This document shows positions 3,482 to 55,028 of a DNA stretch of 64,000 nucleotides, in pieces. The stretch is taken from NCBI RefSeq assembly GCF_000384135.1, contig NZ_KB913028.1, positions 1,391,351 to 1,455,350 on the forward strand, read 5' to 3'. The position numbers and the translations under genes are program-made. A model generated the notes under the pieces. The model was not told the origin of the DNA and searched no databases. It saw only the letters and a list, made by a program, of their open reading frames with translations. Each line of letters opens with the position of its first letter. Within the stretch, counting starts at the first letter, position 1. The stretch comes from Succinispira mobilis DSM 6222. GTDB lineage: Bacteria; Bacillota; Negativicutes; Acidaminococcales; Succinispiraceae.

Positions 3482-3526
3482 TTGACTTTTTACCTAAACT
3501 ATAATATAATGAATGACAATCAGTCA
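3482..3526 (+). promoter_or_regulatory. Promoter and operator of the TetR regulator gene
   Basis: TTGACT (3482-3487) and TATAAT (3505-3510), 17 bases apart, form a promoter. The sequence AATGAATGA-CAA-TCAGTCA at 3508-3526 overlaps the -10 end and the likely transcription start. The same site, inverted, lies at 4204-4222 before the SMR genes, so it is probably the binding site of this TetR protein. Confidence 0.75.
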
Positions 3527-3602: not shown

Positions 3603-4181
3603 GTGAAGCCATTGGATAATAAACGAATTCGACTTTTGGCAGCAGCAAAAAGTGTTTTTGCCGAAAAGGGCCTAGAAAAAGCTACTATTTCGGACATAGT
3701 AAAAAAAGCTGGGATTGCCCAAGGAACTTTTTATTTATACTTTTCTTCAAAAAAAGCTCTTATTCCTGCTATTGCCGATGATCTTTTAGATACATTACTA
3801 GATGAAATACAACAAAAAACACAAGAATCTACTGACATTTGGACTACACTACATCAAATTATTTCAACTACCTTTAAAGTTACAAACTCTTATCAAGAAG
3901 TTTTGGCTCTATGTTATTCTGGGCTGGCTATTGAAAATACTTTAAGTGAGTGGGAAAAAATATACACCCCTTATTATTCTTGGTTAGAAGATTTAATAAA
4001 ACGAGGTATTGAACAAGGAGAAATTCGTTCTAATGTTGACCCCATGATTGCTGCTCGTATGGTTATTGGCCTTATAGAAAGCTGTGCTGAGCAAATGTAT
4101 CTTTTTAATCGCAATGATAAAACTGTTGCTTTACAGCAAGAACAACTATTTATTTTTTTACAACAAGCGCTCAAGGTTTAG
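3603..4181 (+). CDS. TetR family repressor of the adjacent SMR efflux pair
   Basis: This is a TetR/AcrR-type repressor of about 192 residues. The N-terminal helix-turn-helix lies at about residues 10-55 (FAEKGLEKATISDIVKKAG, then GTFYLYFSSKKAL), and the all-helical C-terminal domain is the likely ligand and dimer domain. I chose the GTG at 3603: the frame is open back to an ATG at 3513, but that lies upstream of the predicted transcription start (about 3517). A TTG at 3612 is an alternative. It precedes two SMR genes in the same order as Bacillus subtilis yvdT-yvdS-yvdR, and the same 19-base operator occurs before both transcription units, so it likely represses itself and the pumps until an inducer binds. 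The inducer is unknown. Confidence 0.88.
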   Translation: MKPLDNKRIRLLAAAKSVFAEKGLEKATISDIVKKAGIAQGTFYLYFSSKKALIPAIADDLLDTLLDEIQQKTQESTDIWTTLHQIISTTFKVTNSYQEVLALCYSGLAIENTLSEWEKIYTPYYSWLEDLIKRGIEQGEIRSNVDPMIAARMVIGLIESCAEQMYLFNRNDKTVALQQEQLFIFLQQALKV

Positions 4182-4193
4182 AGTTTGTTTCTG

Positions 4194-4222
4194 TATAATT
4201 TTGTGACTGACATTCATTCATT
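4194..4222 (+). promoter_or_regulatory. Second copy of the TetR operator before the SMR genes
   Basis: TATAAT at 4194-4199 is followed by TGACTGA-CAT-TCATTCATT at 4204-4222. This is the reverse complement of the operator at 3508-3526 except for the three central bases. The -35 region is weak. The arrangement fits a repressor that blocks transcription of the SMR genes. Confidence 0.7.
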
Positions 4223-4236
4223 GGGAGGTGTTTAAT

Positions 4237-4557
4237 ATGCGCTGAACGCTCGTTTTGTCTGCTGCTGTTTTAGAAATACTTTGGGCATCTCTACTTAAAT
4301 ATGCTGATTCTTTGGCAAGTTGGAGTTTAGTATTTTTGCTAATATTGTCGAGTTTTTTACTGCTAATAAGAGCCTATAAACTTATTCCAGTTGGGATTGC
4401 ATATGCAGTTTTCGTTGGCATAGGCACAATTGGAACTTATATTGTAAGTATCTATTTTTTTAATGAAAAACTCTCTTTCGTACAATTTATTTTTTTATTT
4501 TTATTACTTATTGGCATTATCGGTCTAAAAATTACTACACAAGAGGTGAAAAAATAA
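4237..4557 (+). pseudogene. SMR efflux subunit (YvdS-like) with an in-frame TGA at codon 3
   Basis: This is a small multidrug resistance family gene: four membrane helices, about 106 residues, the essential glutamate in helix one (VLEILWASLLKYAD) and the helix-three core (GIAYAVFVGIGT). The natural start is the ATG at 4237, eight bases after GGGAGG, but it reads Met-Arg-stop: codon 3 is TGA (4243-4245) where paralogues have tryptophan. The frame is intact afterwards to TAA at 4555-4557, which overlaps the ATG of the next gene. A TTG at 4255 could restart it without a visible ribosome-binding site and would lose the start of helix one. TGA serves as a normal stop elsewhere in the window. Recent nonsense mutation, sequencing error and leaky read-through are all possible. 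Confidence 0.8.
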
Positions 4558-4871
4558 TGGCTTGGTTATTTATTTTAATTGCTGGTCTAGAAGAAGTTGT
4601 AAGTGTTATGGCAATGAAATATGTTGACGGTATCAAAAACAAAAAACCAATTGCTATTATGGTTATTGGCTTTATCCTAAGTTTCTTTCTCTTAGCACAA
4701 GCTATGCAAGAAATTCCCACAGGAATCGCTTATGCTGTTTGGTCGGGAATAGGGACAATTGGTATTACTCTAGTAGGCATCTTTCGTTTCAAAGAACATC
4801 TTAATAGTGGTCAAATCCTCTTCCTTGCATTAATCATTTTCAGTGTCTTGGGTTTGCAACTTTCTGTTTAA
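4557..4871 (+). CDS. SMR efflux subunit (YvdR-like)
   Basis: This is the intact partner of the SMR pair, 104 residues with four membrane helices. It begins MAWLFILIAGLEEVVSVMAMK with the conserved glutamate in helix one, has a core loop GIAYAVWSGIGTIG and ends without a tail. It resembles Bacillus YvdR, while its upstream neighbour resembles YvdS. Paired SMR proteins usually work as heterodimers that export cationic or guanidinium-like compounds with proton exchange. The ATG overlaps the stop codon of the preceding gene by one base (TAATG), so its translation probably depends partly on the upstream reading frame, which is broken near its start. The substrate is unknown. Confidence 0.88.
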   Translation: MAWLFILIAGLEEVVSVMAMKYVDGIKNKKPIAIMVIGFILSFFLLAQAMQEIPTGIAYAVWSGIGTIGITLVGIFRFKEHLNSGQILFLALIIFSVLGLQLSV

Positions 4872-25233: not shown

Positions 25234-25255
25234 TCCACAAAAACTTTTAACAACT

Positions 25256-25412
25256 CAAGGCAGGTCTCCTGGCTCCCGATTCATCAATTTTACACCTTCC
25301 CCCTTAAGAGTGGCATTCGTAAAATCTCCTCGATACAGTGGTGGGCCCGCGTTTACACATTTTTCAATGCTCCTACTTCCCTATTCTTCACATTATGTGA
25401 CACCTTGGTTGA
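25256..25412 (-). ncRNA. Cobalamin riboswitch aptamer
   Basis: Read on the minus strand, the region contains the usual blocks in order: AAGGTGTC near 25400-25407, a GGGAA segment, the core GCGGGCCCACCACTGT, GCCACTC, GGGGGAAGG, and the B12-box-like GAGCCAGGAGACCTGCC at about 25259-25275. This is the standard class I cobalamin riboswitch pattern. It precedes the arsA-arsB pair. Confidence 0.93.
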
Positions 25413-25430
25413 AATATTCAATTGGAAATT

Positions 25431-54899: not shown

Positions 54900-54927
54900 A
54901 AAGCTCAATAAAACTTATTTAAATATT

Positions 54928-55028
54928 GCAATGCATTACTGGCGGATTAAAGTGGGATACCACGTGGAGTGCATTGTTTGAGCCGGCCGCCTGGGCAAGT
55001 ATTATTTACTATGCTCAGGCGGTTTTTT
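54928..55028 (+). ncRNA. ZTP riboswitch (pfl motif) with terminator
   Basis: The region shows the pfl-motif pattern: an outer stem CAATGCA / TGCATTG around ACTGGCGG and GTGGGATACCACGTGGAG, then the conserved CCGCCTGGGCA at 54987-54997. That last block also forms the left arm of a terminator hairpin with TGCTCAGGCGG (55012-55022), followed by six T bases. GGCGG in the 5' part and CCGCC can pair in the ligand-bound form, which would prevent the terminator. The riboswitch senses ZTP/ZMP, a sign of low 10-formyltetrahydrofolate, and would turn on pflB-pflA. Confidence 0.9.

Follow-up and report, generated by a model that had tools for sequence, protein, structure and literature searches.

Background

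The SMR protein fold is already known, and the described system closest to the genes analysed here is YvdR/YvdS of Bacillus subtilis, in which a TetR gene lies directly upstream of two adjacent SMR genes (yvdTSR layout). An early in-frame UGA without selenocysteine is usually annotated as a pseudogene, or the start of the gene is moved. The YvdR/YvdS pair is assigned to the PSMR subclass, and drug resistance was not shown for it (PMC2716321).

In-frame stops in selected bacterial genes were reported by Belinky et al. in 2021 to be common and mostly short-lived (PMC7918605). Leakiness of UGA has been described in Escherichia coli and B. subtilis, mostly in reporters or at gene ends (PMC5289835, PMC11126739). 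In E. coli, tRNA-Trp is reported to misread UGA particularly readily when the next base is A (PMC5289835), and the residue inserted at UGA is mainly Trp (PMC11126739); a value of 6% for a UGA reporter in wild-type B. subtilis is cited in a passage of PMC7918605. An early UGA at which termination competes with the full protein is also found in the RF2 gene (prfB), where a programmed +1 frameshift is required, and a same-frame substitute for this switch has been sought in RF2 genes, with none known (PMC5009743). A tRNA-Trp(CCA) with a 4-bp anticodon stem, in which one pair is open, likewise reads UGA (PMC13092985). The literature searched, with most subscription journals outside its scope, contained no paper on the SMR case described below.

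Gene organization of the SMR locus

The window analysed is a stretch of 64,000 nucleotides from Succinispira mobilis DSM 6222, whose genome (single contig, 2.09 Mb) contains the operon once; other SMR genes were not found in it. The features of the locus, and two riboswitches located elsewhere in the window, are listed in Table 1. Positions 4223-4245 read GGGAGG-TGTTTAAT-ATG-CGC-TGA, with the Shine-Dalgarno-like GGGAGG 8 bases 5' of the ATG. These coordinates and codons had been given in the first-pass annotation, which also took ATG 4237 for the start with proper context and described the rest of the frame as intact with a one-base overlap, and each statement is borne out: the spacing between Shine-Dalgarno sequence and ATG is 7-9 bases in three lineages, and the frame is open over 4246-4557, ends in TAA and has one base in common with the ATG of the second gene (SMR2) at 4557. 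The same one-base overlap was found in all seven genomes with the TGA.

Table 1. Features of the SMR locus and riboswitches in the window
Feature	Position	Strand	Evidence
Operator-like motif TGAATGACAATCAGTCA 5' of the TetR gene	3510..3526		Motif ahead of tetR in relatives
TetR-family regulator (YvdT-like position)	3603..4181	+	TetR_N and TetR_C_26 matches
Operator-like motif TGACTGACATTCATTCA 5' of the SMR pair	4204..4220		Motif ahead of SMR1 in relatives
Shine-Dalgarno GGGAGG for ATG 4237	4223..4228	+	Sequence; spacing to ATG of 7-9 bases in three lineages
SMR1 (YvdS-type), 106 codons from ATG 4237 through TGA	4237..4557	+	PF00893; dN/dS
In-frame TGA in place of the family's Trp3, next base A	4243..4245	+	TGA in 7/7 Negativicutes genomes with the gene
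SMR2 (YvdR-type partner), codon 3 TGG	4557..4871	+	PF00893, E 6e-32; TGG at this codon in 7/7 genomes
Cobalamin riboswitch	25242..25422	-	Rfam gathering score reached
ZMP/ZTP riboswitch	54925..55003	+	Rfam gathering score reached

The SMR1 protein, of about 105 residues, matches PF00893 in a profile search (E 8e-21), residues 1-101 are matched by Gdx-type solved chains, and Glu13 of helix 1 is kept in 7/7 TGA genomes. The domain, Glu13 and the adjoining partner SMR gene are those of paired YvdS/YkkC-type SMR proteins. The locus resembles that of B. subtilis in its two adjacent SMR genes, the TetR gene directly upstream, SUG-like sequence, Glu13 and membrane pattern, and differs in codon 3 of the first gene, which is TGG in the YvdR/YvdS-type genes and UGA in the Negativicutes clade. 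The start and ribosome-binding site of SMR2 are separate from those of SMR1, and as a paired transporter the two proteins would act as a heterodimer.

For the TetR gene, GTG 3603 appears a likelier start than ATG 3513; the orthologue in genome G084 also begins with GTG. The two operator-like motifs of Table 1 share the form TGA[AC]TGAC..TCA[TG]TCA. With up to 3 mismatches the tetR-side motif is present in most relatives, TGA-bearing or not, and the SMR1-side motif in all TGA genomes, Brevibacillus and two Bacilli relatives. The pair as such was found in Pelosinus, G084, Brevibacillus and two Bacilli relatives and is a likely operator of the TetR regulator.

Distribution and origin of the TGA codon

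A search of 380 Negativicutes genomes for SMR1 at E 1e-20 recovered a YvdS-type SMR gene in seven, belonging to three families: S. mobilis, five Pelosinus and G084. One member of the Pelosinus set was position-matched to Pelosinus fermentans JBW45 (G070), and the other four were assigned from genus code and sequence. The arrangement ATG-(GGC/CGC)-TGA-A occupies the same place in 7/7 of these genomes, the base after the UGA being A throughout; four Pelosinus loci of about 70% identity, recovered when public contigs were scanned, all start ATG GGC TGA ATT. The copy of the site in the whole S. mobilis genome is also TGA, but comes from the same assembly and provides no independent read. The codon is nevertheless neither a chance occurrence nor a sequencing error, since it recurs in three families whose genomes were assembled independently of one another.

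Outside these genomes the codon is different. The contig scan found TGG at SMR1 codon 3 in relatives from Brevibacillus, Helicobacter, Campylobacter, Salimicrobium and Amycolatopsis. An alignment of codon 3 to which matches from 398 genomes of the phylum were added contained TGG in 67 rows, TGA in 12 (all from these seven genomes, some of which were retrieved twice) and other codons in 2; outside the TGA group, TGG is thus present in 67/69 rows. The ancestral codon 3 is, on this alignment, the Trp codon TGG, and a single G-to-A change accounts for the TGA, as had been proposed on first inspection. All other Trp codons of SMR1 and SMR2 are TGG (29/29), including codon 3 of SMR2 in all seven genomes. 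Two loci initially flagged as containing one TGA (L009 and L011) proved to carry only their ordinary terminal stop. Relatives of SMR1 on plasmids were all below 60% identity, with none covering 80% of the query.

A tree of 50 SMR proteins groups the TGA genes in a single clade (support 92/83), the sister group of which consists of TGG genes of Bacilli and Brevibacillus. The change therefore probably happened once, and the simplest account would be one TGG-to-TGA change kept since. As all seven genes share one origin, conservation of the TGA has to be counted as one event followed by retention. Among two-fold purine-ending codon columns, 5/18 are invariant across the seven genomes, as are 18/110 degenerate columns overall; judged by these invariant columns, neutral retention of the third base of the TGA is possible, with a probability of about 0.2-0.3, and is not the expected outcome. 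Two Pelosinus genomes contain a second SMR pair (L176/L187 and L177/L182), and in the one of these pairs that was inspected, the first gene (L187) has TGG at the matching codon.

Selection on the reading frame behind the TGA

In pairwise comparisons of the TGA genes, dN/dS of SMR1 ranged from 0.06 to 0.19 where computable, comparable to the 0.03-0.13 of SMR2, and dS between families ranged from 1.3 to saturation. A frameshift or second stop in SMR1 was found in none of the seven genomes. SMR1 thus combines a stop at an orthologous position with purifying selection behind it, as would be expected of programmed UGA readthrough. Retention of a stop across families whose synonymous sites are near or at saturation appears unusual. 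Codons 4-14 conserve the protein and contain synonymous changes, which implies that translation enters at or before codon 4.

In the five Pelosinus species (L063-L067), SMR1 codons 1-11 are nearly without synonymous change: 1/9 degenerate codons is variable, against 46/99 overall (p = 0.026), and 4/9 in SMR2 for comparison. This gives a weak hint of a constraint on the RNA itself.

Initiation of translation

The main rival to readthrough is a restart beside the stop, in which ATG-X-TGA would be a minimal upstream frame and translation would resume at the ATT or ACG of codon 4, or at a later lineage-specific start, giving a slightly shorter SMR1. Six genomes have ATT at codon 4 and S. mobilis has ACG, each one base away from ATG; S. 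mobilis also has a TTG at codon 7 (4255), and a short frame would account for the kept ATG and Shine-Dalgarno sequence. Restart at codon 4 would moreover leave the same downstream conservation as readthrough, which counts against the latter. However, AUU and ACG are rare and weak starts, the Shine-Dalgarno sequence lies 16-18 bases from codon 4, and the ancestor had a plain Trp codon and hence no earlier short frame. Nor is any ATG, GTG or TTG 3' of the TGA shared among the seven genomes. At codon 12, two Pelosinus have TTG, two TTA and one CTG; in G084 and the three Pelosinus without this TTG, none of the three start codons occurs before the conserved Glu13, and the ATG of G084 stands at codon 15, beyond that residue. 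The TTG at 4255, named in the first-pass annotation as a fallback start, is consequently not a conserved one, and restart as a whole is considered unlikely.

Decoding of the UGA

A long-kept in-frame UGA classically denotes selenocysteine, and a specialised decoder (either selenocysteine insertion, or a suppressor or divergent tRNA for UGA that escaped detection) was considered. The SelB C-terminal domain is absent from the S. mobilis genome, selB was not found above the curated cut-off in any of nine genomes, the best matches to the tRNA-Sec model were tRNA-Ser, and the site has no SECIS-like fold. A selenoprotein was rejected on the lack of SelB and tRNA-Sec; the ancestral residue, moreover, is Trp and not Cys. 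The S. mobilis tRNAs recovered comprise 42 distinct sequences with one tRNA-Trp, of anticodon CCA, and none with a UCA anticodon (150/183 candidates were scored in the first pass). The tRNA-Trp retains A9 and G24, that is, the Hirsh-type suppressor changes (A24 or C9) are absent. With the tRNAs of Pelosinus and G084 covered in part, a decoder of this specialised kind is judged very unlikely.

The genetic code itself is the standard one. TGA ends 8/61 called genes of the window, in agreement with its earlier description as a normal stop here, and the next stop lies no more than 7 codons beyond; all four genomes tested for RF2 contain it. Reassignment of UGA to Trp was rejected because TGA is a normal stop, RF2 is present and only tRNA-Trp(CCA) was found. 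With no UCA tRNA among those recovered, any decoding of the UGA would fall to a near-cognate tRNA. The RNA downstream of the site folds no better than shuffled sequences, giving no sign of a readthrough-stimulating hairpin.

The top anticodon-stem pair (27-43) of the tRNA-Trp is a weak G.U. This recalls the 4-bp anticodon-stem tRNA-Trp(CCA) that reads UGA, yet the pair is open there and a G.U wobble here, and the same G.U is common to Negativicutes without the UGA gene. Most of the Negativicutes examined (L142-L155) have G.U at both 27-43 and 10-25 of tRNA-Trp(CCA). Most Pelosinus genomes have two tRNA-Trp genes.

The codon had initially been regarded as a disabling lesion. Its use as a normal stop in this genome and the presence of RF2 would agree with an SMR1 that is dead or dying. 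As a recent event, a lesion does not hold: the TGA is fixed in 7/7 Negativicutes genomes with the gene, across three families, and a pseudogene is ruled out by dN/dS of 0.06-0.19 and the lack of further stops or frameshifts in all seven. The comparison with relatives that had been expected to support the lesion gave the predicted TGG outside the clade; the TGA common to all Negativicutes carriers speaks against it, and a lesion is now scarcely credible. Equally improbable are editing of the UGA and ribosome hopping over it, either of which would yield an in-frame product without a special tRNA: the site is unlike the U-A-C-G sites of bacterial TadA editing. In-frame hopping over a stop has no known natural case (PMC5009743).

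Proposed model

The reading that we favour as probable is that SMR1 carries an old, kept UGA in a functional gene, which would be read through as Trp by the ordinary tRNA-Trp and would limit the amount of SMR1. SMR1 would be a working half of an SMR transporter of the paired YvdR/YvdS type. Ribosomes would initiate at ATG 4237, and at the UGA most would be released by RF2 with a dipeptide, while a minority would accept ordinary Trp-tRNA(CCA), aided by the A that follows, and go on to complete SMR1, with Trp, the residue typical of the family, at position 3. Since readthrough of the ordinary kind is inefficient, the yield of SMR1 should be low unless something raises it. Because SMR2 is initiated separately, at a start and ribosome-binding site of its own, the effect of the UGA should fall mainly on SMR1, keeping it scarce or tied to termination efficiency. 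The occurrence of readthrough, the insertion of Trp and the limiting or tuning of SMR1 are inferred from the comparisons above.

Readthrough at SMR1 would share with the stops of Belinky et al. an orthologous position, dN/dS below 1 behind the stop and a proposed lowering of expression, whereas those stops are mostly of population-polymorphism age with fairly high dN/dS and the SMR1 stop spans three families at 0.06-0.19 (PMC7918605). The UGA-A context, tRNA-Trp(CCA), RF2 and standard code are those of leaky UGA in E. coli and B. subtilis; in SMR1, unlike the reporters and gene ends mostly studied there, the codon is a fixed early one. Competition between termination and full protein at an early UGA is as in prfB, except that the SMR1 frame continues unchanged.

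A further reading, quite doubtful at present, is that the UGA acts as a regulatory sensor, the efficiency of UGA termination setting pump-subunit synthesis. Any condition or pump substrate that increases misreading or reduces the activity of RF2 would then directly raise the pump.

Conclusions

The SMR1 stop apparently predates the divergence of several families and has persisted in a strongly selected gene. Readthrough of UGA in bacteria has hitherto been described mainly in short-lived cases, and the locus is a small system in which a lasting one could be tested. The UGA may set the ratio of the two transporter halves and, if the sensor reading were true, would represent the equivalent of the RF2 frameshift switch by readthrough in the same frame, in bacteria that lack selenocysteine.
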